64,000 nucleotides of DNA from Muribaculaceae bacterium (GTDB lineage Bacteria; Bacteroidota; Bacteroidia; Bacteroidales; Muribaculaceae): NCBI GenBank assembly GCA_017405965.1, contig JAFQZK010000005.1, positions 1-64,000 on the forward strand, read 5' to 3'. Position numbers and translations under genes: made by a program. The notes under the pieces were generated by a model, which saw only the letters and a list, made by a program, of their open reading frames with translations, did no database searches and was not told the origin of the DNA. Positions 19,723-37,522 of this stretch are shown here, piece after piece; position 1 is the stretch's first letter; every line of letters starts with the position of its first letter.

Positions 19723-19884
19723 CCGTATCATGAGAATTCTAACGCGGGGGTGACCTATGAGGGTTATCCCTGTCGTTTTGTTGTAGTGGTTGAGCGAAAA
19801 CAGTTTAGTTGGGGTGGATTGGTGGGGGATGGTGGACGGGTGGGGGATAGTTGTTAACAAGTGCCAAAAATGGTGCTGTTTTGG

Positions 19885-19916
19885 TTTGGTGGGTTAAGAT
19901 AATTTATGTATATTTG
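19885..19916 (+). promoter_or_regulatory. Promoter of the nuo-atp cluster
   Basis: TTTG (19885-19888), 20 bases, TATATTTG (19909-19916): an exact Bacteroidetes -33/-7 pair. Transcription should start near 19922, giving a leader of about 120 bases before nuoA. No comparable promoter was noticed in the short gaps inside the cluster. Confidence 0.78.
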
Positions 19917-19936
19917 CACCGAGTTTAGAGGCTTTT

Positions 19937-19980
19937 TTGCACGTCTTTACGCGCGTGTGCGTGCGTAAAATGTTGTGCAA
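19937..19980 (+). promoter_or_regulatory. Structured 5' leader of nuoA
   Basis: TTTACGCGCG (19946-19955) pairs with CGTGCGTAAA (19960-19969) around a 4-base loop, and TTGCAC (19937-19942) pairs with GTGCAA (19975-19980) outside it. The hairpin lies in the untranslated leader; it is not followed by a T run. Confidence 0.55.
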
Positions 19981-20042
19981 TAGGGTCTTTAGATGTATTG
20001 GCCTGCCAAAAATTATAACAACAATACAAAAGAACTTCTTTT

Positions 20043-20417
20043 ATGGATTTATCAATTTTCGGAGTACAGAGCACGACAATGGCGATAACGGCGGCGTTGA
20101 CCGGTGTGTTGCTGGTAGTCGGTGCCCTGGTCATCGCGTGGTTAATAGGCCCGCGCAGTTACACCCAGAAGAAAGGTGAGCCCTTCGAGTGCGGTATTCC
20201 CACCCGAGGCGATTCGATGGCCCAGTATCATGTGGGCTATTACCTGTTTGCCATCCTGTTCCTGATGTTTGACGTCGAGACGGTCTTCCTGTTCCCGTGG
20301 GCCACCATCTGCAAGAACATCGGCAGCCAGGCGCTATTCGCTGTGGGTACATTCCTTGTTATTCTCGTTTTAGGTCTGGCTTATGCCTGGAAGAAAGGAG
20401 CGTTGAGATGGAAGTGA
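20043..20417 (+). CDS. nuoA: NADH-quinone oxidoreductase subunit A
   Basis: A 124-residue membrane subunit of complex I with three predicted helices. Family signatures are the loop motif KKGEPFECGIPTRGDSMAQY, with the conserved Cys that lines the quinone cavity, and the acidic FDVETVFLFPW in helix 2. Length is normal. It is the first gene of the 17-kb energy cluster and overlaps nuoB by ten bases. Confidence 0.96.
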   Translation: MDLSIFGVQSTTMAITAALTGVLLVVGALVIAWLIGPRSYTQKKGEPFECGIPTRGDSMAQYHVGYYLFAILFLMFDVETVFLFPWATICKNIGSQALFAVGTFLVILVLGLAYAWKKGALRWK

Positions 20418-21007
20418 AAATCAAGTCGATGAAGCATGAGGACTTCAAGGACAACGAGTATATCGATAACCTGGTCGAGCAACTGCGTGCTGGCGGCACC
20501 AACATCATCGTCGGTAAGCTGGATCAGCTGATGAACTGGGGTGTGAGCAATTCGCTGTGGCCGCTGTGCTTCGGCACCAGCTGCTGCGCTATCGAGTTCA
20601 TGTGCCTGGGCGCTGCCCGCTACGACATGGCCCGTTACGGCTTTGAGGTGGCCCGCAACAGCCCCCGTCAGGCCGACTATATCATGTGCCAAGGCACCAT
20701 CAACTACCGCATGGCTCCGGCACTGAAGCGTCTGTATGAGCAGATGGCCGAGCCCAAGTACGTCATCGCGTGCGGCTCGTGCACCGTGAGCGGCGGTCCT
20801 TTCAAGAACAGCTACTGCGTGGTCAAGGGCGTTGACGAGATCATCCCCGTCGATGTCTATCTGCCCGGCTGTCCGCCTCGTCCCGAGGCCTTCTTCTATG
20901 CTCTGATGCAGTTGCAGCGCAAGATCAAGGTGCAGAAGTACTTTGGCGGCGTGAACCGCAAGGAGAAACTCGACAGCCTCAAGTATGCACCCGAGGAGAG
21001 TAAATAA
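20408..21007 (+). CDS. nuoB: NADH-quinone oxidoreductase subunit B
   Basis: A 199-residue peripheral subunit carrying the terminal 4Fe-4S cluster N2, which passes electrons to quinone. The ligand cysteines are visible in CFGTSCCAIEFMC, ACGSCTVSGGPF and LPGCPPRPE. The ATG at 20408 overlaps the end of nuoA by ten bases, implying translational coupling; ATG 20429 is an alternative. The C-terminal tail (FGGVNRKEKLDSLKYAPEES) is slightly longer than in minimal NuoB. Confidence 0.95.
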   Translation: MEVKIKSMKHEDFKDNEYIDNLVEQLRAGGTNIIVGKLDQLMNWGVSNSLWPLCFGTSCCAIEFMCLGAARYDMARYGFEVARNSPRQADYIMCQGTINYRMAPALKRLYEQMAEPKYVIACGSCTVSGGPFKNSYCVVKGVDEIIPVDVYLPGCPPRPEAFFYALMQLQRKIKVQKYFGGVNRKEKLDSLKYAPEESK

Positions 21008-21060
21008 CTAGTTAGGAGTCGGAAGTTAGAAGTTAGGAGTTAAAACTAACAACTTAAAAC
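21008..21060. repeat. Iterated-word spacer (GTTAGGAGT type)
   Basis: The gap between nuoB and nuoCD is built of repeated words (GTTAGGAGT, GAAGTTAGAAGTTAGGAGTT) followed by their loose complement (AACTAACAACTTAAAACT). It has no coding potential. Confidence 0.6.
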
Positions 21061-21076
21061 TGAAAATAATTACAAT

Positions 21077-22711
21077 ATGGCAGATATAGATAACAAAATC
21101 ACTCAGTTGTGCCCCCAGGCCCAGGTGGACACCACCGGCGAGTTCCCGCTGGTGACGGTGGCCGATGCCCAGTGGCATGACCTGGCAAGCGCACTGAAGA
21201 CCCAGTTGCACTATGACGTGCTGAGCGCCGTCGTGGGCATGGAATGGCCCGATGCATTCGGCTGCGTTTATTACCTGACCAACCCCACGACCCACGAGCT
21301 GCTTCACGTCAAGGTGACCGCCCCCGACCGCGAGAATCCGCGTCTGCACTCGGTAGTGGACCTGTGGCCCGTTGCCAATTTCCAGGAGCGCGAGGTGTAT
21401 GACTTCTTCGGCATCGTGTTCATCGGTCATCCCGACATGCGCCGCATGTTCCTGCGCAACGACTGGGTGGGTTACCCCCTGCGCAAGGACTACGACCCCG
21501 ACAGCAACCCCCTGCGTCTCGAGGACGAGACCAACGAGGATTACACCTGCCGCTGGGTCGAAGACGAGAACGGCAAGGTGCAGAAGATCGACGGCAAGGT
21601 GTTCGAGGACGACGAGTATGTCGTCAACGTGGGCCCGCAGCACCCGTCAACCCACGGTGTGATGCGCTACCGCGCCAGTCTCGACGGCGAGACCGTCAAG
21701 AAGATCGACGTTGTGAGCGGTTACATCCACCGCGGCATCGAGAAGATGTGCGAGAGCCTGACCTATCCCCAGATGCTGCTCTACACCGAGCGCATGGACT
21801 ACATGGCCGCCCACATCAACCGCCACTGCATGTGCATGTGTGTGGAGAAGGCCCTCGGCCTTGAGGTGCCCCGCCGCGCCGAGCTTATCCGCCTGATGAT
21901 GGACGAGCTGATGCGCTTGTCGTCCCACTTGTTGAGCTACGGTTGCTTGACGATGGACCAGGGAGCCACGACCGCCTTCTTCTACGGTTTCCGCGAGAGG
22001 GAGCTGATTTACGATATCTTTGACCGCACCTGCGGTGCCCGCATGTCGATGAGTTACAGCACCATCGGCGGCGTGGTGGCCGATGTGCACGAGGACTTCG
22101 TCAAGGATGTGCGCCACGCTTGTGACGTCATCGAGAAGAACCTCAAGGAGTACCACAAACTCTTCACCGGCAACGTCATCGCCGTGAACCGTATGACGGG
22201 CGTGGGCATCCTGAGCAAGGAAGACGCCATCGCATACGACATCACCGGACCTTCGGGCCGCGCCAGCGGTTGGCACTGCGACGTGCGCAAGACCAATCCT
22301 TATTCGCTCTACAACGAGTTCGAATTCGACGAGGTCGTTTACCAGAACGGCGACTCGATGGACCGCTACATGGTGCGTATGAAGGAGATGGAAGAGTGCA
22401 TCAAGATCCTGCGCCAGGCTTGCGATAAGCTCGAGGCCGAGGGGCTCCAGGGCGAGTATTGCGCTCCCAAGGTGCCCAAGCTGATGAAACTGCCCGCCGG
22501 TCACTGGTACCAGCAGGTGGAGGCCAGCCGTGGCGCCTTCGGCGTGTATATCGAGAGTGACGGCAACACCAAGCCCGTGCGCGTCCACTTCCAGTCGCCG
22601 TGCTTCAACCTGATTGGCGTGGTGGACCTGACGTGCCGCGACAACCTGATTGCCGACCTGATCACCATCACGGCGTCGCTCGACTTTGTCATCCCCGACA
22701 TTGACCGCTAA
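21077..22711 (+). CDS. nuoCD: NADH-quinone oxidoreductase subunit C/D fusion
   Basis: A 544-residue natural fusion. Residues about 1-155 are NuoC (30-kDa subunit; signature QEREVYDFFGIVFIGHPDMR). Residues about 175-544 are NuoD (49-kDa subunit) starting at GPQHPSTHGVMRY, which carries the quinone-binding histidine region, and ending in the family C-terminus VDLTCRDNLIADLITITASLDFVIPDIDR-like tail with the conserved terminal DIDR. C/D fusions are usual in Bacteroidetes and enteric bacteria, so this is not a frameshift artefact. The peripheral arm encoded here consists of B, CD and I only. Confidence 0.95.
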   Translation: MADIDNKITQLCPQAQVDTTGEFPLVTVADAQWHDLASALKTQLHYDVLSAVVGMEWPDAFGCVYYLTNPTTHELLHVKVTAPDRENPRLHSVVDLWPVANFQEREVYDFFGIVFIGHPDMRRMFLRNDWVGYPLRKDYDPDSNPLRLEDETNEDYTCRWVEDENGKVQKIDGKVFEDDEYVVNVGPQHPSTHGVMRYRASLDGETVKKIDVVSGYIHRGIEKMCESLTYPQMLLYTERMDYMAAHINRHCMCMCVEKALGLEVPRRAELIRLMMDELMRLSSHLLSYGCLTMDQGATTAFFYGFRERELIYDIFDRTCGARMSMSYSTIGGVVADVHEDFVKDVRHACDVIEKNLKEYHKLFTGNVIAVNRMTGVGILSKEDAIAYDITGPSGRASGWHCDVRKTNPYSLYNEFEFDEVVYQNGDSMDRYMVRMKEMEECIKILRQACDKLEAEGLQGEYCAPKVPKLMKLPAGHWYQQVEASRGAFGVYIESDGNTKPVRVHFQSPCFNLIGVVDLTCRDNLIADLITITASLDFVIPDIDR

Positions 22712-22758
22712 TCAACGAGTTAATCCATACGAACAAAACCACTAAAGAGAGATAAGAT

Positions 22759-23841
22759 ATGTTTGATTTCGGAATAGTCACGAAATGGTTAGATGACTGG
22801 ATGAACGGCTTCATGCCAGGCTGGCTGACCACGACAATCGAGTGTGTGCTGGTGGCCGTGGGCCTGCTGGTCGCTTATTCACTCATCGCCATGTTCTACA
22901 TCTTCTACGAGCGCAAGGTCTGCGGTTGGATTCAGTGCCGCCTGGGCCCGATGCGCGTGGGTAAGTGGGGCTTGCTCCAGGTGTTTGCCGATGTGATCAA
23001 GATTCTCCAGAAGGAGTTGATCACCTTGTGGAACACCGACAAGTTCCTCTTCAAGTTGGCGCCCTATCTGGTGCTGATCGCCTCGATGCTCACCTTCGCC
23101 TGCCTGCCCTGGGGTAAGGGCCTGCAGGTCATCGACATGAACATCGGCGTGTTCTTCATCGTCGCTGTGTCGTCGATCGGTGTGCTGGGTATCCTGCTCG
23201 CCGGTTGGGCAAGTAACAGCAAGTACACCCTCATCGGTGCTATGCGTAGCGGCGCCCAGATGATCAGCTACGAGTTGTCGTGCGGCATCTCCATCCTGAC
23301 CATCGTCTGCCTGGCCGGTACCATGTCGGTGACAGGTATCGTCGAGGCGCAGAAGGACGGCTGGTTCCTGTTCAAGGGCCACCTGCCCGCCATCCTCGCG
23401 TTCATCATCTACATGATTGCTGCCAACGCCGAGAACAACCGCGGCCCGTTCGACCTCCCCGAGGCCGAGCACGAGCTGACCGCCGGTTACCACACCGAGT
23501 ACTCGGGTATCCACTTCGGCTTCTTCTATCTGGCCGAGTACCTGAACCTGTTCATCGTGTCGGGTATCGCCACGCTGCTCTTCCTGGGCGGCTGGATGCC
23601 CCTGCACATCCCCGGTTGGGAAGGCTTCAACAACATCATGGACTACATCCCCAGCGTGGTATGGTTCCTGGGTAAGGCCTTCTTCATCACCTTCATCTTC
23701 TTCTGGATCCGCTGGTCGTTCCCGCGCGTGCGCATCGACCAGATGCTGGCTCTGGAATGGCGTTACCTGATGCCCATCGGTCTGGTCAACCTTGTGATCA
23801 TGGCCATCATCGTGACCCAGGGATGGTACTTCGGTGCATGA
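22759..23841 (+). CDS. nuoH: NADH-quinone oxidoreductase subunit H
   Basis: A 360-residue membrane subunit that joins the peripheral arm to the membrane arm and forms the entry to the quinone chamber. Signatures are [16 protein letters not shown] near residue 50 and [20 protein letters not shown] near residue 235, plus about eight or nine hydrophobic helices. Length is normal. In the usual Bacteroidetes order nuoI would follow; here atpD begins 49 bases downstream instead. Confidence 0.95.
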
Positions 23842-23854
23842 TATCAACAGCTAA

Positions 23855-25390
<1,536 letters not shown>

Positions 25391-25434
25391 GCCTTACCTT
25401 ACACTGGTTATAATACATTATTAATATATAATAC

Positions 25435-25668
25435 ATGACACTCAAAATCATATCGGCCGAAAGAATCGAGTTTGAAGGCACTGTCGAGCTGGTGACGCTT
25501 CCCGGCGTCATGGGACAGTTCCAGGTGCTCAAGAACCATGCCGCCCTCATCGCCGCCCTCAAGGACGGCAAGATGAGCTATGTGGCCGAGGGCAAGACCG
25601 TGGAGCGTGACATCCATGGTGGCATCGCCGATGTAAAAGATAATGTGGTGTCGGTGTGCTTGTATTGA
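25435..25668 (+). CDS. atpC: ATP synthase F1 subunit epsilon (short form)
   Basis: A 77-residue protein matching only the N-terminal beta-sandwich of epsilon (MTLKIISAERIEFEGTVELV, TLPGVMGQFQVLKNHAALIA). The C-terminal two-helix domain that inhibits ATP hydrolysis in E. coli and Bacillus is absent, as in other Bacteroidetes. It connects gamma to the c-ring in the central stalk. It lies directly after atpD. Confidence 0.93.
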   Translation: MTLKIISAERIEFEGTVELVTLPGVMGQFQVLKNHAALIAALKDGKMSYVAEGKTVERDIHGGIADVKDNVVSVCLY

Positions 25669-25675
25669 CAGAGGA

Positions 25676-26755
25676 ATGAAAAGCAAAATCATAACTGCGA
25701 TTGTCGCCCTCGTGATTGTGGCGCTGATGGGGTGGGGCTACTACAGCAACGCTCAGCATCGCGCTCACGGTCATACCAGCGAGCTGAACCCCAAGGAGAC
25801 CATCTTTGAGCACTTGGGTGACGCCTACGGCTGGGAGGTGCCTTTCAATCACAGCCTGCGCATCCCGCTTCCCATCATCGTGTGGGGGCAGGACGGCCTG
25901 CACTGTTTCATGAGCAACCGCATCACTGGCGGCGAGACCTATGACGGCTTCAAGATCTCGACCAGCGAGGAGCATCACGGTAAGGTCGTTCAAGTCATGG
26001 ACGACGGCACCGAGGTGCGTCCCTGGGACTTCTCCATCACCAAGAACGTGGCCGGCATCGCCATTGCTGCCCTGCTCGTGATTTGGATGGTGATGAAGCT
26101 CAAGCGCTGGTATGTGCGCAACGGCATGAAAGCGCCGCGTGGCGGCACGGGCTTCCTTGAGCTGATTGTGGACTTTGTGTATACCGACACGATCCGTCCC
26201 ATCCTGGGCAAGCATGCGCCCAAGTATGCGCCCTATCTGCTCACGGCCTTTTTCTTCATCCTGACGATGAACCTGCTGGGTCTGATCGTCATCTTCCCCG
26301 GTGGCGCCAATCTGACCGGCAACATCGCCGTGACACTGGTGCTCGCCCTGTTGACGTTCCTGATCACCACCTTCAGCGGCACTAAGGAGTACTGGAAGGA
26401 AATCTTCTGGCCCGAGGTGCCCATGATGCTCAAGTGTCCCGTGCCCATGATGCAGCTCATCGAGGTGCTGGGCATGTTCACCAAGCCGTTGGCCCTGATG
26501 GTCCGACTGTTTGCCAACATGATGAGCGGTCACATGGTCGTTCTCGTGCTGGTGTTGCTCATCTTCATCTTCACCAACCTGTTCGGTGTGGGCGTGGGTA
26601 TCGGCACGAGCATCTTCTCGGTGGCCTTCACCCTGTTCATGCTCTTGCTGGACGTGCTGGTGAGCTTCATCCAGGCCTACGTGTTCACTATCCTGAGCAC
26701 CATCTTCATCTCGATGGCCCTTGTGGAACCGCATGAGCACGAAGCGGCTAAATAA
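25676..26755 (+). CDS. atpB: ATP synthase Fo subunit a
   Basis: A 359-residue membrane subunit; the start at 25676 is preceded by a GAGGA ribosome-binding site 7 bases after atpC, whereas an ATG at 25643 would overlap atpC. After a signal-like first helix comes a long periplasmic N-terminal extension (to about residue 115) typical of Bacteroidetes, then the conserved proton half-channel helices with MVRLFANMMSGHMV, which carries the essential arginine, and FIQAYVFTILSTIFI. It works with the c-ring to conduct ions. Confidence 0.94.
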   Translation: MKSKIITAIVALVIVALMGWGYYSNAQHRAHGHTSELNPKETIFEHLGDAYGWEVPFNHSLRIPLPIIVWGQDGLHCFMSNRITGGETYDGFKISTSEEHHGKVVQVMDDGTEVRPWDFSITKNVAGIAIAALLVIWMVMKLKRWYVRNGMKAPRGGTGFLELIVDFVYTDTIRPILGKHAPKYAPYLLTAFFFILTMNLLGLIVIFPGGANLTGNIAVTLVLALLTFLITTFSGTKEYWKEIFWPEVPMMLKCPVPMMQLIEVLGMFTKPLALMVRLFANMMSGHMVVLVLVLLIFIFTNLFGVGVGIGTSIFSVAFTLFMLLLDVLVSFIQAYVFTILSTIFISMALVEPHEHEAAK

Positions 26756-26811
26756 TTAATTATCAAGAAAATAAAAAACAATAAATATTAACAATTAAAA
26801 ATTTTTGGACT

Positions 26812-27054
26812 ATGTTAGACATGATTTTATTAGATGCTATGGCCAACCTTGGCGCAGCTATTGGAGCAGGTATCGCAGCTGTTGCAGCAGGTATCGGTAT
26901 TGGTAAGATTGGTGGCAGTGCCATGGAGGCTATTGCACGCCAGCCCGAGTCGACCGGCGACATCCGCAGCAACATGATCGTTATTGCCGCTCTGATCGAG
27001 GGTGTTGCATTCCTTGCCCTCATCGTTTGTGTACTGGCAATTATTATGAAGTAA
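26812..27054 (+). CDS. atpE: ATP synthase Fo subunit c
   Basis: An 80-residue hairpin of two helices: glycine/alanine-rich helix 1 (AAIGAGIAAVAAGIGIGKIG), the polar loop ARQPE, and helix 2 with the ion-binding glutamate in AALIEGVAFLALIV. The residue after the Glu is Gly rather than the Ser/Thr of sodium-binding rings, which favours proton coupling (inference). It is preceded by an AT-rich 56-base gap. Confidence 0.95.
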   Translation: MLDMILLDAMANLGAAIGAGIAAVAAGIGIGKIGGSAMEAIARQPESTGDIRSNMIVIAALIEGVAFLALIVCVLAIIMK

Positions 27055-27069
27055 TTTTTCTGGGTTCAG

Positions 27070-27567
27070 ATGGAACTTTTCACGCCTGAATTTGGCCTGG
27101 TTTTCTGGATGTTCGTGGCATTCCTGTGCCTCTACTTCATCCTTGCCAAGTGGGCATGGCCCTTCATCATCAAGAGTATGGAGGAACGTGCCGACAAGAT
27201 TGACAAGGGTGTTGCCGTGCATCAAGAGGCCGAAGCACGCCTGAAAAACGCCAGAGCCGAGGCAGACAAGTTGCTTGCCGACGCCCGCAGCGAGCAGGCC
27301 GATATCCTGCGCGAGGCAGCCAAGATGCGCAACGAACTCATCGAGAAAGCCCGCAACGACGCTGCCGACGAGGCCAAGAAGGTGAGCCAGGCTGCTCAAG
27401 TATCGCTTGAGCAGGCACGCAAGGAGGCTGAAAAGCAACTGCGCACCGAGGTGGGCGACCTGGCCTTGCAGATTGCCGAGAAGGTGATCCGCAAGAACAT
27501 CGCCAACGACGATGCCCAGCGTGCCCTGGTTGACCAATATCTGAGTGAGGTTGAGACTAAAAACTAA
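27070..27567 (+). CDS. atpF: ATP synthase Fo subunit b
   Basis: A 165-residue peripheral stalk subunit: one N-terminal membrane helix (FGLVFWMFVAFLCLYFILAK) followed by a long charged coiled coil rich in Ala, Glu and Lys (KNARAEADKLLADARSEQAD). It holds F1 against subunit a. Fifteen bases separate it from atpE and six from atpH. Confidence 0.94.
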   Translation: MELFTPEFGLVFWMFVAFLCLYFILAKWAWPFIIKSMEERADKIDKGVAVHQEAEARLKNARAEADKLLADARSEQADILREAAKMRNELIEKARNDAADEAKKVSQAAQVSLEQARKEAEKQLRTEVGDLALQIAEKVIRKNIANDDAQRALVDQYLSEVETKN

Positions 27568-27573
27568 CGCGAT

Positions 27574-28116
27574 ATGAGTGACGGACTGATTCCACGCCGA
27601 TACGCCAAAGCGCTGTACAAGCTCGCCGTCGAGAACGGTGACTCGGAGGAAATCTATGAGCTCTTGAAGAAGCTCAGTTTCCGCCACACCGCTATCGACG
27701 AACTCAAGCGCGCGGTGCTCAACCCCGGAATCTCTGACGAGGACAAGGGCGCTTACATGCTGCAACTCGCGGGTGGCAAGCCCGGCAGCTCGCTGGACAA
27801 GTTCCTGCTGCTGTGCGTGCGCAACAACCGCTCCGAGTACCTGCAGAAGATCTCCCTCGCCTACGTCGATCTCTATCGTGAGGCTCATGAGATTGCCCAT
27901 GTCGTGGTTACCACGGCAGTTCCCATGCCCGAGGCACAGATGAACGCTATCATCGATATCGTGAAAAAACGTCTTGGGGCTAAATCACTAGAGATCGAAG
28001 AGAAAATCGATCCCGAAATCATCGGCGGCTTCATCGTGACCATCAATGGCCTCGTGCTTGACGCGTCGGTAAGGAGAGAATTGAACGAATTGCAATTACA
28101 ACTGCTCAAGAAATAA
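27574..28116 (+). CDS. atpH: ATP synthase F1 subunit delta
   Basis: A 180-residue soluble subunit at the top of the peripheral stalk, linking b to alpha. The N-terminal helical domain starts with the usual IPRRYAKALYKLAVENGD, and the C-terminal part has the family motif KIDPEIIGGFIVTINGLVLDASV followed by RRELNELQLQL. Length is normal. Confidence 0.93.
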   Translation: MSDGLIPRRYAKALYKLAVENGDSEEIYELLKKLSFRHTAIDELKRAVLNPGISDEDKGAYMLQLAGGKPGSSLDKFLLLCVRNNRSEYLQKISLAYVDLYREAHEIAHVVVTTAVPMPEAQMNAIIDIVKKRLGAKSLEIEEKIDPEIIGGFIVTINGLVLDASVRRELNELQLQLLKK

Positions 28117-28125
28117 TTACAAGAG

Positions 28126-29721
28126 ATGATTAATCCCAGTGAAATATCTGATATATTGAAGCAACAGCTTGTTGATGATATCCTCAAGCGTCAGGTTGCC
28201 TTCGAGGAAGAAGGCACTGTCTTGGAGGTGGGCGACGGCGTGGCTCATGCCTATGGCCTGCACAATGTCGAGGCCAACGAGCTCGTGAGGTTCGAGAACG
28301 GCGTGACCGGTGTCGCTATGAACCTGGAGGAGAGCGATGTGGGTATCATCCTGCTCGACGAGGTGGACTCAGTGACCGAGAACATGAAGGTGCGCCGCAC
28401 CGGCGAGATCGCGTCCATCGAGGTGGGCGAGGGACTGCTGGGCCGCGTGATCAACGTGTTGGCCAAGCCTATCGACGGCGCTGGCCCCATCGAGGGTGAC
28501 AAACTGCGTCTGCCGCTGGAGCGTAAGGCACCCGGTGTCATCTTCCGCCAGCCGGTGAACCAGCCGTTGCAAACGGGCCTCAAGGCCATCGACTCGATGA
28601 TTCCCATCGGCCGCGGCCAGCGTGAGCTCATCATCGGTGACCGCCAGATCGGCAAGACCGCCATCGCGGTTGACACCATCATCAACCAGCGTGCAGGCTA
28701 TGAGGCTGGCAAGCCGGTATATTGCATCTATGTCGCCATCGGTCAGAAGGCATCGACCGTTGCCGCCCTTGTCAACAAACTCAAGGACTCGGGCGCCATG
28801 CCTTATACCATCGTCGTGGCAGCCACCGCTGCCGACTCGGCGTCGATGCGCTACTACGCACCCTTTGCCGGTGCCGCCATCGGTGAGTACTTCCGTGACA
28901 CCGGTCGCGACGCCCTCGTGATCTACGACGACTTGTCGAAGCATGCTGTGGCCTATCGTGAGATCTCGCTGATCCTCAAGCGCCCCTCGGGCCGCGAGGC
29001 TTATCCCGGCGATATCTTCTACTTGCACAGCCGTCTGCTGGAACGTGCCGCCAAGATCAACGAGAATCAGGACGTGGCCAGCGTGATGAACGACCTTCCC
29101 GCACCGCTCAAGCCCATTGTCAAGGGTGGCGGCTCGTTGACGGCATTGCCCATTATCGAGACCCAGGCCGGCGACGTGAGCGCCTATATCCCCACTAACG
29201 TGATTTCGATTACCGATGGTCAGATCTACCTCGAGTCGGCATTGTTCAACTCGGGTATCCGTCCCGCTGTGAATGTGGGCATCTCGGTATCGCGTGTGGG
29301 TGGTAACGCTCAGATCAAGTGTATGAAGAAGGTGGCAGGAACCCTCAAGATCGCCCAGGCTCAGTACCGTGAGCTTGAGGCCTTCACCAAGTTCGGCGGT
29401 GACATCGACCCCGTTACCGCACGCACCATCGACACGGGCCGCAAGAACGAGCGCCTGCTCGTCCAGCCGCAGTACACCCCGATGAAAGTCGAGGAGCAGG
29501 TGGCTATCATCTATTGCGGTGTGAACGGCCTGTTGCGTGACGTGCCTCTGGACAAGGTGGCCGAGTTCGAGAAATTGTTTATCGACTACCTGCGTGGCAA
29601 GCATCAGGGCGATGTGCTCGATGTGCTGCGCACCGGCAAGATTGACGACGACGTCATGTCCAAGCTCAAGCAAGCCGCTGCCCAGGTAGCCTCCAAGTAT
29701 GTTGAAGCCCCTGCCAGTTAA
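28126..29721 (+). CDS. atpA: ATP synthase F1 subunit alpha
   Basis: A 531-residue non-catalytic nucleotide-binding subunit. Walker A is [14 protein letters not shown] near residue 170, the alpha/beta signature is PALN-like at the C-terminal side of the nucleotide domain ([18 protein letters not shown]), and the C-terminal helical domain is complete. It lies nine bases after atpH. Confidence 0.97.
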
Positions 29722-29743
29722 GGTATATCATTAAGTTAGCAAG

Positions 29744-30628
29744 ATGTCAACGTTAAGAGAACTCAAGACGCGAATAGGTTCGGTAGCCTCCACCCAGAAG
29801 ACGACGAGCGCCATGAAGATGATCAGTTCGTCCAAGATGCGCAAGGCCACCGGCCAACTCCAGCGCTTGTCGCCCTACCGCCACATGGTGCAACACGTGA
29901 TCAGCCACCTGCTGGTGACCGATCAGCAATTCGACTCGCCGCTCATCGTTGAGCGTGAGGTACAGCGGGTTGCACTGGTGGTGTTCGGTAGCGATGACGG
30001 CCTGTGTGGCGGTTTTAATGTCAACATTTTGAAGCAGTTGCTCGTCACCATCAAGGACGTGCGCAAGCAGTATGGCTCACAGGTGGGCATTACCGTGATC
30101 CCTGTGGGCAAGAAGATGACCAAGGCCGTTGAGAAAATCACCGGCAAGGACATCCAGATGGAGCGTGTGGCCCTCAACACCCGCAGCGGCAACGAGGACC
30201 TGTACACCTTCACCGACCTGATGAAGACGCGCTTCCTGGAGCACACGTTCGACCGCGTGGAGATGCTTTACATGCATTTCATCTCCACCGGTAAGCAGGT
30301 CTTCAGCCGTGAGCAGCTGTTGCCCGTGAGCTATCAGGGCCTGGCCGACAATGTTGACCCGCGTGCCGCCAACAGCCCCTGCCTGTTTGAGCCCGATGCC
30401 AACACCATCTTCAACACCGTGCTGCCCTTGCACGTCAAGTCGATGCTCCAGGATGTGTTCATCCAGAGCGCGGCCAGCGAGCAGAGCGCGCGTGTGATGG
30501 CGATGCAGGCAGCGAGCGACAACGCCAAGGAGTTGCTCGACGAGTTGCAACTGGAGTACAACAAACTGCGTCAGCAGGGCATCACCACCGAGCTGCTCGA
30601 TATCCTGGGCGGCCAGGTGGAACGCTAA
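29744..30628 (+). CDS. atpG: ATP synthase F1 subunit gamma
   Basis: A 294-residue central rotor subunit with the N-terminal coiled-coil helix (LRELKTRIGSVASTQKTTSA, MKMISSSKMRKA), the core SDDGLCGGFN and the C-terminal helix ASEQSARVMAMQAASDNAKE. It is the last gene of the ATP synthase block; nuoI starts 39 bases later. Confidence 0.96.
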   Translation: MSTLRELKTRIGSVASTQKTTSAMKMISSSKMRKATGQLQRLSPYRHMVQHVISHLLVTDQQFDSPLIVEREVQRVALVVFGSDDGLCGGFNVNILKQLLVTIKDVRKQYGSQVGITVIPVGKKMTKAVEKITGKDIQMERVALNTRSGNEDLYTFTDLMKTRFLEHTFDRVEMLYMHFISTGKQVFSREQLLPVSYQGLADNVDPRAANSPCLFEPDANTIFNTVLPLHVKSMLQDVFIQSAASEQSARVMAMQAASDNAKELLDELQLEYNKLRQQGITTELLDILGGQVER

Positions 30629-30667
30629 CATGAAATTCTAACGAAAACAAGAAAAGACTAAGAGAAT

Positions 30668-31240
30668 ATGAGCATCAAGGAGTATTTCGTCTCGATCTTC
30701 AAAGGCTTCTACAGCCTGATCAAGGGAATGGAGGTGACCGGCAAGGAGCTGGTGACCCCCAAGGTGACCGAGCAGTATCCCGAAAACCGTGCCGAGCTTC
30801 ACATCCCGGAGCGTTTCAGGGCCACGCTGGAGTTCATCTATGATGAAAACGGTTATCACAAGTGCATCGCTTGCGGCAGCTGTGAGCGCAACTGCCCCAA
30901 TCAGACCATCGCCATCACCAAGCGCATGGTGGAGCTGCCCGACGGCAAAAAGAAGCAGAAACTCGACAAGTACACGTATGACCTGGGCAGCTGCACTTTC
31001 TGCGGCCTGTGTGTCCAGGTGTGCCCCACTAACGCCATCCGCTTCAGCAACGACTTTGAGCAGGCGGTGTTCACGCGCGAGAAGCTCGTCAAGCAGCTCA
31101 ATTATCTGCCCGAGAAGGACGATGCTCCCGCTCCCGCACCTGCAGCCAAGCCTGCGGCTCCCAAGCCCGCTGCTCCGGCAGCCGAAAAGCCCGCAACCAG
31201 TGGCGAGACTAATCAAGAAACTAAAGAAAACAAGGAATAA
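30668..31240 (+). CDS. nuoI: NADH-quinone oxidoreductase subunit I with Ala/Pro-rich tail
   Basis: A 190-residue ferredoxin-like subunit with two 4Fe-4S sites, CIACGSCERNCP near residue 60 and CTFCGLCVQVCP near residue 110, carrying clusters N6a and N6b. Unusually, after about residue 150 it continues as a low-complexity tail rich in Ala, Pro and Lys (APAPAAKPAAPKPAAPA) ending in a charged stretch. As no NuoEFG genes lie in this cluster, this subunit may be near the point where the electron donor docks. The stop overlaps the nuoJ start by one base. Confidence 0.94.
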   Translation: MSIKEYFVSIFKGFYSLIKGMEVTGKELVTPKVTEQYPENRAELHIPERFRATLEFIYDENGYHKCIACGSCERNCPNQTIAITKRMVELPDGKKKQKLDKYTYDLGSCTFCGLCVQVCPTNAIRFSNDFEQAVFTREKLVKQLNYLPEKDDAPAPAPAAKPAAPKPAAPAAEKPATSGETNQETKENKE

Positions 31241-31755
31241 TGGAATCAGTAGGTAACATCATTTTGTATTTTATCGTTGCCATCGCCATCATCGTGTTCT
31301 CGGTGCTGACGGTCACTACGCGCAAGATTCTGCGCTCGGCAACTTATCTGCTGTTTGTGCTTTTTGCCACAGCCATCATCTACTTCCAGATGGACTATCA
31401 GTTCCTGGGAGCTGTACAGATCGCCGTTTATGCCGGCGGCATTCTGGTGCTGTTCGTGTTTGCCATCATGCTCACGCAACAGCCCGGAAAGAATGCCGAG
31501 GCCCTGGCCACGCATCGCCGCTGGCTGGGACTGACGGCAGCGCTTGCCGGAGTCGCCGTGTGTGGCTACGGCCTGTTCAGCTATGCTGGCTTCGCTGGCC
31601 GACTGCTCAGCAGCGGGGTGGACATCAATATGGAAAAGATCGGCCAGTTCTTGTTGAGCACCGACAAGTATGGCTATCTGTTGCCTTTTGAGGCCATCAG
31701 TGTGTTGTTATTGGCTTGTATCATTGGAGGTGTGGTTATTGCCCGTCGCCGCTAA
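31240..31755 (+). CDS. nuoJ: NADH-quinone oxidoreductase subunit J
   Basis: A 171-residue membrane subunit with five predicted helices. The conserved region YLLFVLFATAIIYFQMDYQF and AVQIAVYAGGILVLFVFAIM includes the pi-bulge helix typical of ND6/NuoJ. It overlaps nuoI by one base (TAATG), implying coupled translation. Confidence 0.93.
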   Translation: MESVGNIILYFIVAIAIIVFSVLTVTTRKILRSATYLLFVLFATAIIYFQMDYQFLGAVQIAVYAGGILVLFVFAIMLTQQPGKNAEALATHRRWLGLTAALAGVAVCGYGLFSYAGFAGRLLSSGVDINMEKIGQFLLSTDKYGYLLPFEAISVLLLACIIGGVVIARRR

Positions 31756-31770
31756 AAATGTGATAAGATT

Positions 31771-32082
31771 ATGGATTTGACATTGTTTATGTATCTCATC
31801 CCCAGCCTCATCATGTTTGGCTGCGGTGTTTATGGTTTCATCACCCGCAAGAACATGATTGCGATCATGATTTCGCTCGAGTTGATGCTCAACTCGGTGG
31901 ATATCAACTTTGCGGTGTTTAACCGTTACCTGTTCCCTGGTCAGATGGACGGCATGTTCTTCTCGCTGTTCGCGATTGCCATCGCGGCTGCCGAGACGGC
32001 ACTTGCCCTTGCCATCATCATCAATGTGTTCCGCATTGCCAAGAACGTGGACATCAACCAAATCACTAAACTGAAATTCTAA
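31771..32082 (+). CDS. nuoK: NADH-quinone oxidoreductase subunit K
   Basis: A 103-residue three-helix membrane subunit (ND4L type) with the conserved acidic residues in MIAIMISLELMLNSVDINF and AIAAAETALALAIIINVFR. Length is exactly usual. It lies between nuoJ and nuoL with gaps of 15 and 5 bases. Confidence 0.95.
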   Translation: MDLTLFMYLIPSLIMFGCGVYGFITRKNMIAIMISLELMLNSVDINFAVFNRYLFPGQMDGMFFSLFAIAIAAAETALALAIIINVFRIAKNVDINQITKLKF

Positions 32083-32087
32083 CGATT

Positions 32088-34079
32088 ATGCCATTAAGCT
32101 TAGCAATAGTAGTTGTAGTATTGCCCCTGGTCATGTTCCTGTTCCTGGGACTTGTCGGGGTGAAAATGGGTAAAAAGATCACCGGTGCAATCGGTGTGCT
32201 GGCCATGCTGGTCGACACCATTCTCGCCTATGGCGTGGCGCTGACCTATTTCTTCGGCAGCGGTGAGCAGTTGGTGAACGGTGTTCGTCAGGCAGTCGTT
32301 GTTGCCAATCCGGCCTGGTTGTCGTTTACCGACACGATGGTGGTGCGCATGGGTGTCCTTGTGGATCCCATCGCAGCGATGATGCTCGTGGTCATCACCA
32401 CGGTATCGCTGATGGTGCACCTCTACAGTATGGGCTACATGTGTGACCACGACGGCAATGCCGAGAAGGGTTTCCAGCGTTACTACGCCTTCCTGGCGTT
32501 GTTCACGTTCTCGATGCTGGGCCTGGTGGTTGCCACCAACATTTTCCAGATTTTCGTGTTCTTTGAGATGGTGGGTCTTTCATCCTACCTGCTCATCGGT
32601 TTCTATTACTCGACCCCTGCCGCCAATCATGCCAACAAGAAGGCCTTCATCGTCACCCGTCTGGCTGACTTATTCTTCCTGCTGGGTATCATGATTCTGA
32701 GCTATTATACCAAGACTTTCGACTTCGACGCGCTCGTCTTCGGGCCCACGATGTCGGGTAGCTTGGATACGGCCCAGAGTGCCATCAGCACTGCCGGCGG
32801 AGCCACCTTCCTGGGTTGCTCGGTCATGGGTTGGGCGTTGACCTTCATCTTCATCGGCGGTGCCGGTAAGAGTGCGATGTACCCGTTGCACATCTGGCTG
32901 CCCGATGCTATGGAGGGTCCCACTCCCGTATCGGCGTTGATCCACGCTGCGACCATGGTTGTCGCCGGTGTGTTCCTGGTGGCAAGGTTGTTCCCGCTGT
33001 ATGTCCTCGAGCAGGGTGCGATGAACATCATCCTGGTCGTTGGCGCCTTCACGGCTTTCTATGCCGCCGCCATCGCCTGCACCCAGAGTGACATCAAGCG
33101 TGCGCTGGCCTTCTCGACCATCTCGCAGATCGCCTTCATGATGACCTCGCTGGCCGTGAGCTCCAACAACAACTCGCTGCTCGAGATTCACCACGGTTAC
33201 GGCCTGGGTTACATGGCGTCGATGTTCCACCTGTTCACTCACGCTATGTTCAAGGCGTTGCTCTTCCTGTGCGCCGGTGCCATCATCCATGCCGTTCACA
33301 GCAACGAGAACGACAAGATGCACGGTCTGCACAAGTATATGCCCATCACCAGCATCTGCTTCCTCATCGGTTGCTTGGCCATTGCGGGTATTCCCCCGTT
33401 CGCCGGCTTCTTCAGTAAGGACGAAATCCTCGTCGCTGCCTACGAGCGCGGCCTGGGTTGGGGCCTGTGGATGTCGATGGTGGCTTGCATGACCGCCTTC
33501 TACATGTTCCGTATCTACTACCTCATCTTCTTCTGGAAGAAACATGAGGTTCACACTCACCATGCTCCCAAGGACCAGCCCTGGACGATGACGCTTCCGC
33601 TCATCATCCTGGCTGCCATCTCGTGTGTTGCGGGCTTCGTGCCCTTCCACGACCTGGTGACCTGGGATGGCAAGGCGCTGGAGACTGCCGTTGACATGAA
33701 GGTGGCCGGCTCGAGCGTACTCGTCGCCCTGGTGGGTATCGGTCTCGCAACCGTCATGTACCGCAAGGAGAACCCGCTGCCCGACCGTCTCGCCAACGCG
33801 ATGCACGGCCTGTGGCAAGCCAGCTACAAGCGCTTCTACATGGACGAGCTCTACCAGTTCATCACCCACAAGGTGATCTTCCAGGCCATCTGTGTGCCCA
33901 TCGCATGGTTTGACCGTCACATCATCGACGGCTTCTTCAACCTGCTGGCCGATGCCACCAACTCGCTGTCGTTCGGCATCCGCCGTCTGCAGTCGGGCAG
34001 CATCCAGGCCTATGTGTATGTTTATCTGTTGGGTGCCCTGCTGCTTGCAGCGATCACCATGGTATGTGTATTGTTCTAA
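32088..34079 (+). CDS. nuoL: NADH-quinone oxidoreductase subunit L
   Basis: A 663-residue antiporter-like proton-pumping subunit at the distal end of the membrane arm. Signatures include FEMVGLSSYLLIGFYY with the key glutamate, HIWLPDAMEGPTPVSALIHA and the lysine of broken helix 7, and FAGFFSKDEIL. The C-terminal lateral helix region is present (DELYQFITHKVIFQAICVPI). Length is normal. Confidence 0.95.
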   Translation: MPLSLAIVVVVLPLVMFLFLGLVGVKMGKKITGAIGVLAMLVDTILAYGVALTYFFGSGEQLVNGVRQAVVVANPAWLSFTDTMVVRMGVLVDPIAAMMLVVITTVSLMVHLYSMGYMCDHDGNAEKGFQRYYAFLALFTFSMLGLVVATNIFQIFVFFEMVGLSSYLLIGFYYSTPAANHANKKAFIVTRLADLFFLLGIMILSYYTKTFDFDALVFGPTMSGSLDTAQSAISTAGGATFLGCSVMGWALTFIFIGGAGKSAMYPLHIWLPDAMEGPTPVSALIHAATMVVAGVFLVARLFPLYVLEQGAMNIILVVGAFTAFYAAAIACTQSDIKRALAFSTISQIAFMMTSLAVSSNNNSLLEIHHGYGLGYMASMFHLFTHAMFKALLFLCAGAIIHAVHSNENDKMHGLHKYMPITSICFLIGCLAIAGIPPFAGFFSKDEILVAAYERGLGWGLWMSMVACMTAFYMFRIYYLIFFWKKHEVHTHHAPKDQPWTMTLPLIILAAISCVAGFVPFHDLVTWDGKALETAVDMKVAGSSVLVALVGIGLATVMYRKENPLPDRLANAMHGLWQASYKRFYMDELYQFITHKVIFQAICVPIAWFDRHIIDGFFNLLADATNSLSFGIRRLQSGSIQAYVYVYLLGALLLAAITMVCVLF

Positions 34080-34112
34080 TCAACGGTCTAACAAAAGGAA
34101 AGGATATATCAA

Positions 34113-35645
34113 ATGGAAATTTTCAATAATATACTGATTTACTTTGTGATCGTGCCTCTGTTGACACTTGGAGGCCTGGCCGTGTGCCGCAACCAGGGCA
34201 TCAAGGCCATCAGGACCGTTGCTGTTATTGGCGCCAGCGTGCTTATGGTGCTTGCCGCCATGCTGGTCAAGATTTTCCTTGACGCGCGTGCCGGTGGCGA
34301 CACCAGTGAGATGATCCTGCGCAGCGATCTGTTGTGGTATGCCCCGTTCAACGTCCACTTGGCGCTCGGCGTCGATGGCGTGAGCGTGGTGATGATTCTG
34401 CTGTCGGCGTTCATCGTGTTCGCCGGTGTGTTCGCCTCGTGGAAGATGAACCCGCTGCCGCGGCAGTTCTTCATGTGGTTCTTCCTGTTGTCCACGGGTG
34501 TGTTCGGTTTCTTTATTTCGATCGACCTGTTCACGATGTTCATGTTCTATGAGGTCGCTCTGATTCCCATGTACCTGCTGATTGGCGTGTGGGGCAGCGG
34601 CAACAAGAACTACAGTGCCATGAAGCTGACGCTGATGCTGATGGGTGGCTCGGCCTTCCTGATGCTCGGCTTGATCGGTATCTATTTCCACTCGGCTCCC
34701 GAGGGTCAGGCACTGACGATGAACATCCTGGACATTGCTCATAACGATGCCATCCCGCACAGTTGGCAATATGTGCTGTTCCCGCTGACGTTTGTCGGCT
34801 TCGGCGTGCTGGGTGCCATGTTCCCGTTCCACACATGGTCTCCCGACGGTCATGCCTCGGCGCCCACGGCGGTGTCGATGCTCCACGCCGGTGTGCTGAT
34901 GAAGCTTGGTGGTTACGGCTGCTTCCGCATCGCCATCTACCTGATGCCGTTTGCTGCCAATGAGCTGGCTTGGATCTTCCTGCTGCTCACCGGTGCCAGC
35001 ATCGTCTATGGTGCGTTGAGCGCCTGTGTGCAGACCGACCTCAAGTACATCAATGCCTATTCCAGTGTGAGCCACTGCGGTATGGTGCTGTTCGCCATCC
35101 TCATGTTCAACACCACGGCGATGACCGGTGCTGTGATGCAGATGCTCTCGCACGGTCTGATGACGGCCCTGTTCTTTGCCTTGATCGGTATGATCTATGG
35201 CCGCACCCACACGCGTGACATCCGCGACATGGGCGGTATGATGCACATCATGCCTTACCTGGGTGTGGGCTATGTGATTGCCGGTTTGGCATCGCTGGGT
35301 CTGCCGTTCCTGAGCGGTTTCGCTGCCGAGATGACCATCTTCTTCGGCTCGTTCCAGCACACCGACACCTTCCACCGCGTGCTCACCATCTTGGCGACCA
35401 CGTCGATCGTCGTGACTGCGGTTTACATCTTGCGCGTTGTCGCCAAGCTCTTGTTCGGCGAGGTACAGGATGAGCACCACCGCTCGTTGACCGACGCCAC
35501 CTGGGAGGAGCGCCTGTCCACGGCAACGCTGATTTTTGCCGTGGCAGCCATCGGTTGTTTCCCCAACTTCTTTATTGACATTATCAAGGGCAGCTTCTAC
35601 CCCGTTGTCGAGGCCTTGCAGGCTGCTCTGCCCAATGTGATGTGA
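34113..35645 (+). CDS. nuoM: NADH-quinone oxidoreductase subunit M
   Basis: A 510-residue antiporter-like proton-pumping subunit (ND4 type). Conserved parts are MFYEVALIPMYLLIGVWG, FPFHTWSPDGHASAPTAVSM and the AYSSVSHCGMV segment. It follows nuoL by 33 bases. Confidence 0.95.
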   Translation: MEIFNNILIYFVIVPLLTLGGLAVCRNQGIKAIRTVAVIGASVLMVLAAMLVKIFLDARAGGDTSEMILRSDLLWYAPFNVHLALGVDGVSVVMILLSAFIVFAGVFASWKMNPLPRQFFMWFFLLSTGVFGFFISIDLFTMFMFYEVALIPMYLLIGVWGSGNKNYSAMKLTLMLMGGSAFLMLGLIGIYFHSAPEGQALTMNILDIAHNDAIPHSWQYVLFPLTFVGFGVLGAMFPFHTWSPDGHASAPTAVSMLHAGVLMKLGGYGCFRIAIYLMPFAANELAWIFLLLTGASIVYGALSACVQTDLKYINAYSSVSHCGMVLFAILMFNTTAMTGAVMQMLSHGLMTALFFALIGMIYGRTHTRDIRDMGGMMHIMPYLGVGYVIAGLASLGLPFLSGFAAEMTIFFGSFQHTDTFHRVLTILATTSIVVTAVYILRVVAKLLFGEVQDEHHRSLTDATWEERLSTATLIFAVAAIGCFPNFFIDIIKGSFYPVVEALQAALPNVM

Positions 35646-35686
35646 TGAAAGTGTTTAACCTGATAATAAAAGCATAAGATAAAGAT

Positions 35687-37165
35687 ATGAATTTTAATCT
35701 TGATTATTCACAAATCTTGTATATGCCGCAGGAAATCGGCCTGTTGGTGGTTTTCTTGCTCGTTTTCTTATACGACACTTTCATGCCCGAGCGCACCAAG
35801 CGTTACACGGCCGTGTTCTCGGTCATCATGATGGCAATCTACACGGTATATTGCTTCTGCATGCCTGTAGTGACCGGATTTGCCTTTGGCGAGATGTACG
35901 AGACCAATGCTCCCACCTGGGTGATGAAGAACATCCTCAACGTGGGCGTTGTGCTGGTGCTCTTGCAGGCTGTCAAGTGGACCGACAGCGAATTCGTGAG
36001 CGTTCGCCGCGGCGAGTTCTACGAGTTGATCCTGTTGACGCTGCTGGGCATGTTCCTCATGATTTCGTCACGTCACTTCCTGCTGTTCGTCATCGGTCTC
36101 GAGACCGCCTCGCTGCCCATCGCAGCGCTGGCCGCGTTCGAGAAGCGTCACTACGAGTCCCACGAGGCTGCTGCCAAGTACATCTTCACTGCAGTCTTCT
36201 CGTCGGCGATTTTCCTGTTGGGTATCTCCTTCGTGTATGGCATGAGCGGCACGCTCTACTTCAGAGACATCGCCACGATGCTGCTGGGCAACCAATCGGC
36301 TCTGCTGATTGCCGCCCTGGCCTTCGTCATCGCCGGTGTGGGCTTCAAGCTCTCGCTCGTGCCCTTCCACCAGTGGACTGCCGACGTTTATCAGGGTTCG
36401 CCCACGGCCGTTACCAGCTACCTGTCGGTCATCAGCAAGGGCGCTGCAGCGTTCTCGTTCCTGATCATCCTGGTGCAGGTCTTCGGTGCTGCTTACAGCC
36501 ATGTGTGGGAATGGATGCTCTATGCAGTGATCATCCTTACCATCACGCTGGGTAACCTGTTCGCCATCCGTCAGCGCAACCTGAAGCGCTTCCTGGCCTT
36601 CTCGTCGATTTCTCAGGCCGGTTACATCATGCTCGGTGTCATCGCCGTGAACGTGATGGGCATGAGCTCGATGATCTACTATGTGCTGGTTTACATCTTC
36701 AGTAACCTCGCCGCCTTCGGCGTGATTGCCGCTATTGAGCGCCAGACCGGTCGCGTGACCATGGACGATTACAACGGCCTGTTCAAGACCAACCCCTGGC
36801 TCGCCTTCACGATGATGCTTGCCATGTTCTCGCTGGGTGGTATTCCCCCGTTTGCGGGCTTCTTCAGCAAGTTCTTCATCTTCGTTGGCGCTTGCCATCA
36901 GGGCTCGGTGGCCATCTACGCGCTGGTACTCATCGCGTTGATCAACACGATCATCTCGCTGTACTACTACCTGCTTGTGGTCAAGGCTATGTTCCTGCGT
37001 CAGGACGACTGCGTGATACCCACCATCAAGAGCCACTGGACCGAGCGTCTGGGTCTCATCCTGTGTGTGCTGGGTGTCATCTTCATCGGTTTGATCAGTT
37101 GCATCTATACCTACATCAACGGTTCGGTAGATGCCATCAGCTCGATGTTCGCAATCATCCAGTAA
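35687..37165 (+). CDS. nuoN: NADH-quinone oxidoreductase subunit N
   Basis: A 492-residue antiporter-like proton-pumping subunit (ND2 type), with VIGLETASLPIAALAAF, VPFHQWTADVYQGSPTAVTS and LAFSSISQAGYIMLG. It is the last gene of the cluster and is followed about 190 bases later by a strong terminator. Confidence 0.95.
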   Translation: MNFNLDYSQILYMPQEIGLLVVFLLVFLYDTFMPERTKRYTAVFSVIMMAIYTVYCFCMPVVTGFAFGEMYETNAPTWVMKNILNVGVVLVLLQAVKWTDSEFVSVRRGEFYELILLTLLGMFLMISSRHFLLFVIGLETASLPIAALAAFEKRHYESHEAAAKYIFTAVFSSAIFLLGISFVYGMSGTLYFRDIATMLLGNQSALLIAALAFVIAGVGFKLSLVPFHQWTADVYQGSPTAVTSYLSVISKGAAAFSFLIILVQVFGAAYSHVWEWMLYAVIILTITLGNLFAIRQRNLKRFLAFSSISQAGYIMLGVIAVNVMGMSSMIYYVLVYIFSNLAAFGVIAAIERQTGRVTMDDYNGLFKTNPWLAFTMMLAMFSLGGIPPFAGFFSKFFIFVGACHQGSVAIYALVLIALINTIISLYYYLLVVKAMFLRQDDCVIPTIKSHWTERLGLILCVLGVIFIGLISCIYTYINGSVDAISSMFAIIQ

Positions 37166-37352
37166 CCAAGTATCACTGGAGTTTGGTGTTTAGAGAATGT
37201 CGCAAGCGGCATCAGCCCTGATTCTCGCAACGATCTGAACACCCTCTAAACCCTAAACTCTAAACTTTAAGTTTGCAGGGCAAACTTAAATAGAATACTA
37301 CTTCTGATATCATTTAGCATAACCAAACAGGAGAAGATTTGTTTCATGTTAT

Positions 37353-37389
37353 GGGAGCGCTGTGGCAATCCACAGCGCTCCCGCTTTTT
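37353..37389 (+). terminator. Terminator of the nuo-atp cluster
   Basis: GGGAGCGCTGTGG and CCACAGCGCTCCC form a perfect 13-bp stem around a 4-base loop, followed by GCTTTTT. It closes the co-directional energy cluster. Confidence 0.92.
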
Positions 37390-37451
37390 ACCTAGCCTGA
37401 TATTCAGAGGAAGGTAAAGCCGAAAAAATAATACAAAAAATGCGAGTTGTC

Positions 37452-37482
37452 TTTTGATTTTGTTAAATAAATGCTATATTTG
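37452..37482 (+). promoter_or_regulatory. Promoter of the large LRR-dockerin gene
   Basis: TTTTG (37452-37456), 18 bases, TATATTTG (37475-37482), about 40 bases before the start codon at 37523. Confidence 0.65.
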
Positions 37483-37522
37483 CGACAGAATTATATATTA
37501 ACCTCATTAAAACTCAATAATC

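Follow-up and report, generated by a model that had tools for sequence, protein, structure and literature searches.

An F-type ATP synthase gene set within the complex I locus of a Muribaculaceae bacterium and its relatives in the Bacteroidales

Genes and features of the nuo-atp locus

The window, a 64,000-nucleotide stretch of contig JAFQZK010000005.1 from a Muribaculaceae bacterium, carries between positions 20043 and 37165 a cluster of 18 genes, all on the + strand, in the order nuoA-B-CD-H, atpD-C-B-E-F-H-A-G and nuoI-J-K-L-M-N (Table 1). The NCBIfam scans bear out the initial annotation, in which a co-directional nuo set is split by a complete atp set. The junctions that it had placed at 23842-23890 and 30629-30667 coincide with the measured gene ends (nuoH end 23841, atpD start 23891; atpG end 30628, nuoI start 30668). 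The best NCBIfam match had an E-value of 1.2e-14 or lower for each of the 18 genes, and with nuoA, atpC, nuoI and nuoJ no model's strict cut-off was reached. The atpC product is a short form (77 aa), without the region that corresponds to the C-terminal end of the TIGR01216 model (130 positions). The atpB open reading frame opens at 25643, and its start is likely the inner ATG at 25676. With this atpB start, the intergenic gaps range from -10 (the nuoA/nuoB overlap) to 69 bases.

Table 1. Features of the nuo-atp locus and its borders (window positions), with the profile matches or sequence characters that identify them
Feature	Position	Strand	Evidence
Bacteroidetes-type promoter-like site	19874..19919	+	TTTTGGTTTGG upstream, TATATTTGC at 19909-19917
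nuoA	20043..20417	+	NCBIfam NF005839, 8.2e-30, below cut-off
nuoB	20408..21007	+	NF011391, 3.3e-103
nuoCD fusion	21077..22711	+	NF008974, 7.2e-128; TIGR01961, 1.3e-30
nuoH	22759..23841	+	NF004743, 5.1e-101; NF004741 above cut-off
nuoH-atpD seam	23842..23890	+	49 bases, no TAnnTTTG motif, no hairpin
atpD (F1 beta)	23891..25390	+	TIGR01039, 1.2e-230
atpC (F1 epsilon)	25435..25668	+	TIGR01216, 1.5e-15, profile 2-76 of 130, below cut-off
atpB (Fo a), likely start	25676..26755	+	NF009953, 2.7e-54; TIGR01131 above cut-off
atpE (Fo c)	26812..27054	+	TIGR01260, 3.5e-13, above cut-off
atpF (Fo b)	27070..27567	+	NF011041, 2.1e-39; TIGR01144 above cut-off
atpH (F1 delta)	27574..28116	+	NF009964, 8.8e-40; TIGR01145 above cut-off
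atpA (F1 alpha)	28126..29721	+	TIGR00962, 6.8e-218
atpG (F1 gamma)	29744..30628	+	TIGR01146, 3.5e-73, above cut-off
atpG-nuoI seam	30629..30667	+	39 bases, no hairpin in the window
nuoI	30668..31240	+	TIGR01971, 8.3e-31, slightly below cut-off
nuoJ	31240..31755	+	NF005168, 2.4e-22, below cut-off
nuoK	31771..32082	+	NF004322, 6.8e-27; NF004320 above cut-off
nuoL	32088..34079	+	NF005141, 5e-171, above cut-off
nuoM	34113..35645	+	TIGR01972, 1.2e-121, above cut-off
nuoN	35687..37165	+	TIGR01770, 2.1e-111, above cut-off
Intrinsic-terminator-like hairpin	37352..37383	+	14-pair stem, then CTTTTT

The cluster encodes the 11-subunit form of complex I, with nuoC and nuoD fused. No nuoE, nuoF or nuoG was detected in the cluster by the NCBIfam scans, and when the window's own genome was searched with PF01512 (NuoF) the only match was a 635-aa protein beside an [FeFe] hydrogenase-type protein. 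By the cluster scans and the genome-wide PF01512 search, then, the NADH-oxidising module NuoEFG of the 14-subunit complex I was not found. The 635-aa NuoF-type protein is located at G000:C31:117854-118369 (L300:913-2820 and 2835-3515), and the protein that follows it matches the NADH-dependent [FeFe] hydrogenase group A6 over the portion read. The c subunit of the ATP synthase lacks the residues that we take to be the sodium-binding signature, and protons are, on the strength of this signature, the likely coupling ion.

The GC fractions of nuoA-H, the atp block and nuoI-N are 0.576, 0.568 and 0.553, respectively, so there is no composition break at either seam. No tRNA was found in the whole window, and no Rfam match reached the gathering score within positions 19000-38000. 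These results agree with the earlier statement that neither a tRNA nor a composition break marks the junctions, and a mobile insertion of the atp block was rejected on these grounds. The 10-kb flanks have GC fractions of 0.489 (upstream) and 0.514 (downstream); the cluster is thus GC-richer than its surroundings, an excess on which the initial annotation was silent. Within the cluster, atpE is conspicuous with a GC3 of 0.481. Downstream of the cluster, positions 37523-42211 encode a 1562-aa protein with partial, below-cut-off matches to leucine-rich-repeat adhesin and GldK-type models, and this gene is preceded by its own TATATTTGC motif at 37475.

An integrated nuo-atp layout has been known for the window's family since 2016. 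The available part of the report on S24-7 or 'Ca. Homeothermaceae' (Muribaculaceae) describes an F-type ATP synthase in 26 of 30 genomes, integrated in the complex I locus, with 11 of 14 complex I subunits present and NuoEFG absent; genome H5 lacked both complex I and ATP synthase (Ormerod et al., 2016; PMC4936053). The window, whose genome is best read as Muribaculaceae-type, too has the atp genes inside the complex I locus and 11 subunits, with NuoEFG absent from the locus. Beyond what that part of the report contains, the gene order, the junctions, the distribution outside the family and the origin come from the present analysis. The initial annotation had set the arrangement against Bacteroides genomes with separate nuo and atp sets; the nearest named relatives are instead Muribaculaceae-type (S24-7) MAGs, and for that family the layout was already in print (PMC4936053). 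It had also allowed that the same order might prove to be widely described. The layout is indeed in print for the family, but PMC4936053 was the only paper found, in mostly non-subscription literature. The same search, made for the arrangement itself, found nothing on its wider distribution, a single origin, hairpins at the seams or the f106 case described below.

Two other Bacteroidales systems invite comparison. According to the available part of PMC7002350, the Bacteroides fragilis nuo operon (BF638R_0841-0850) likewise encodes an 11-subunit complex I without nuoE, nuoF and nuoG; unlike the window, it runs over ten consecutive locus tags, taken here as ten nuo genes without an insertion. 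As reported there, deleting nuo in B. fragilis left the NADH:quinone oxidoreductase activity undiminished; an electron donor of unknown identity is suggested by the authors (PMC7002350). Prevotella bryantii, in the accessible portion of PMC6560451, has, like the window, both a headless complex I and an ATP synthase, the latter proton-driven, and in addition NQR.

Conservation and distribution of the arrangement

One genome per species (84,980 species) was searched with AtpG, yielding 174 relatives, the best 80 of which were analysed. Among these best 80 of 174, gene order was identical in 80/80 loci as far as the contigs reach. All 18 genes were present in 55 of the 80 loci and the nuoH-atpD seam in 64, and atpG was followed by nuoI in 78; the other two loci (L032 and L081) stop at or near a contig edge. 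Within the window's family, NuoH was found in 78 of the 79 genomes searched, AtpG in 77 and both in 76. The two genes lie on the same contig and strand, 5845-6574 bp apart, in 68 of these 76 genomes and on different contigs in eight, three of which (G006, G065 and G067) still have nuoH followed by atpD. When 30 NuoH loci of the family were read, atpD followed in 28 and a contig end cut the other two.

The window's genome is in 40 contigs, and the related loci are, by title, uncultured or MAG records, as would suit an assembly or binning error that had joined two operons. Against such an error, both seams were seen in separate records (the 78 and 64 of the best 80 counted above), and the NuoH-AtpG spacing is kept on a 3.3 Mb contig of a genome in only three contigs (G057). 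A join error at either junction is thus refuted by independent assemblies, and we put the probability of this explanation close to nil. The comparison of the junctions across relatives, proposed with the initial annotation, speaks for a genuine layout.

The arrangement extends beyond the family. A draw of 198 genomes from the order gave 125 with a NuoH-family match, and 90 NuoH loci were examined, low-scoring hydrogenase-like and some full-scoring matches having been left out. NuoH was followed by atpD in 11 of these loci and by nuoI in 77, and neither was detectable in two. The 11 carriers belong to families f22, f28, f60, f68, f88 and f109, in all six of which the full 18-gene order was read; with the window's own family (f1), carrier families number seven in the order. 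Across the phylum, 148 genomes were drawn and 131, the window's own included, had a NuoH match. Among the 50 loci examined, from 50 other genomes, none had atpD behind nuoH; nuoI followed in 36 and neither gene in 14. Independent occurrences elsewhere in the phylum were rejected on this count.

On a tree built with seven ribosomal proteins of 29 of 30 genomes (G266 had no match and was omitted), the 13 carriers fell into one clade (98/97), with one change of state. The carriers also formed one clade on a NuoCD+NuoH tree (SH-aLRT 99). One carrier clade on the ribosomal-protein tree suggests that there was probably one insertion. Where nuo and atp lie apart, atpDC and atpBEFHAG form one block in several families (e.g., G183, G185, G241, G227 and G269), and only atpBEFHAG was seen in other families (e.g., G151, G178, G171 and G106). 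The simplest reading is that a single event probably placed the whole atp operon between nuoH and nuoI.

Ancestry of the ATP synthase genes

One genome of family f106 (G183) has an uninterrupted nuo set; its atp genes share the contig but lie ∼11 kb from nuo and on the other strand (L280 and L281; G183:C8:22000-58000). Its nuo genes group with those of non-carriers, and the Nuo tree puts f106 in the group adjoining the carriers. ATP synthase trees were built from 31 (AtpA+AtpG) and 19 (seven subunits) of the loci at hand. They do not recover the carriers as a firm clade, f106 joining them. Carriers and f106 could be sister lineages that keep a half-way state; despite the placement on the Nuo tree, this was rejected, as the ribosomal tree rejects a clade made up of the carriers and f106 (p-AU 3.3e-5).

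The same rejection bears on whether the inserted ATP synthase is native to the carriers, or whether its operon was acquired from a different Bacteroidales lineage, for instance f106, or shared between the two, and took the place of the original copy. A foreign source would also suit the long stem that carriers and f106 share on the ATP synthase trees, 0.66 changes per column with AtpA+AtpG and 0.63 with the seven subunits (SH-aLRT 100), whereas the Nuo and ribosomal trees give the carriers stems of 0.076 and 0.031, respectively. However, the window's AtpD and AtpA retain 65.6-72.5% identity to their counterparts in three non-carriers (G241, G227 and G185), so that rapid change in the smaller subunits may account for most of the long stem. 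Against two carriers from other families (G165 and G242) the identities are 72.0-78.4%, and against G183 they are 72.4-75.0%. Moreover, the carrier and f106 group still falls among neighboring Bacteroidales families on the ATP synthase trees, and f106 is represented by a single genome of unusual letter make-up. We consider a non-native ATP synthase unlikely. A transfer of the atp operon between f106 and the carriers, in either direction, is itself likely from these trees, as judged from that one f106 genome.

Transcription signals and energy coupling

Upstream of nuoA, a match to TAnnTTTG, which we take to be the Bacteroidetes promoter motif, lies at 19909-19916. Further matches within the cluster fall at 22015, inside nuoCD, and at 22758, over the nuoH start, and none was found at the nuoH-atpD and atpG-nuoI seams of the window. 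A sigma-70 scan listed 20 sites (vs. 10.4 in shuffles), none of them at the motif before nuoA. The "strong promoter" initially placed in front of the cluster therefore stands as a TAnnTTTG motif and not as a sigma-70 site. The perfect terminator described behind nuoN was recovered as the hairpin of Table 1.

These signals recur in relatives, which are closely related to one another, so that the counts of motifs, terminators and hairpins given here are not independent. Of 64 sequences, the window included, 48 have TAnnTTTG in the 200 bp ahead of nuoA (vs. 9.5 in shuffles), and it was not found in the other 16; 38 of its 50 occurrences lie 130-151 bases ahead of the ATG. In the 200 bp before atpD and before nuoI the motif was rare (4/75 and 4/89 sequences, respectively). 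Outside the window's family, 5 of 10 sequences from carrier families have it before nuoA, and it was not found in the other 5. A terminator-like site within 350 bp after nuoN was seen in 31 of 72 sequences, window included (vs. 4.5 in shuffles), and not found in 41. The presence of TAnnTTTG before nuoA and its rarity at the seams fit one 18-gene transcript. The motif in front and the few at the seams would be consistent with the proposal made at the outset, that proton pump and consumer are co-expressed in a fixed manner.

The seams of relatives bear on a different account, in which the order is an accident of descent from one insertion, without significance for regulation, atp and nuo having their own mRNA ends and unequal levels. 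A single insertion maintained by descent requires no selection, and hairpins of at least 6 pairs occur in the atpG-nuoI spacer of 26/88 relatives (vs. 5.4 in shuffles), such that nuo and atp levels could be unequal; the nuoH-atpD spacer has one in 1/73 (vs. 0.5 in shuffles). Seams longer than 250 bases were dropped from this count, leaving 73 of 75 nuoH-atpD and 88 of 89 atpG-nuoI spacers. Only 2 of the 26 atpG-nuoI hairpins, however, have at least 4 T in the next 8 bases, and the seams are short, with medians of 51 and 56 bases. Nor was any break-up of the arrangement seen in the window's family, where the spacing is kept in all genomes but the eight with the two genes on different contigs, and even among those eight nuoH runs into atpD in three. 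We hold this account to be rather unlikely.

The hairpin at the atpG-nuoI seam may be what is left of a former atp terminator, or may adjust expression levels. Spacers with such hairpins were examined in L036-L077 and L288-L299. Unusually long seams were also seen, of 725 (L024) and 824 (L033) bases at nuoH-atpD and 513 bases (L080) at atpG-nuoI. The hairpins and the occasional long seams leave room, in some genomes, for mRNAs that end or begin separately.

A bolder proposal is that the insertion was a clade-founding change in energy metabolism, in which the ATP synthase of the seven families diverged strongly, or gave way to a foreign operon, on coming under the control of the promoter that drives a headless complex I. 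Both complexes would then be made together, tuned by the atpG-nuoI hairpin and perhaps assembled as partners, f106 holding a copy outside nuo. We regard this as improbable.

Our preferred reading, to which we assign a probability of about 0.85, is that the locus is the known Muribaculaceae-type energy superoperon: the atp operon probably entered between nuoH and nuoI a single time, in an ancestor shared by seven Bacteroidales families, and has persisted there, with a single mRNA and the coupling of a headless complex I to the ATP synthase as its predicted parts. Gene content, gene order, wide conservation and the restriction of the trait to one clade are observed. We propose that (i) the last common ancestor of the seven families acquired atpDCBEFHAG at the nuoH/nuoI junction, and the operon was retained; (ii) a single long mRNA would start at the promoter ahead of nuoA, cover the 18 genes and end at the terminator that follows nuoN; (iii) the 11-subunit complex I, presumably fed by a donor other than NADH, would pump protons; (iv) the ATP synthase would use the protons pumped by complex I; and (v) the atpG-nuoI hairpin, where relatives have it, may tune the two halves of the operon.

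As a genomic marker of one Bacteroidales clade, the layout is stable. The superoperon reading predicts that the ATP synthase and the headless complex I would be switched jointly in a major gut family, and complex I genes embedded with ATP synthase genes would offer a natural test of the role that the NADH-independent complex I plays.
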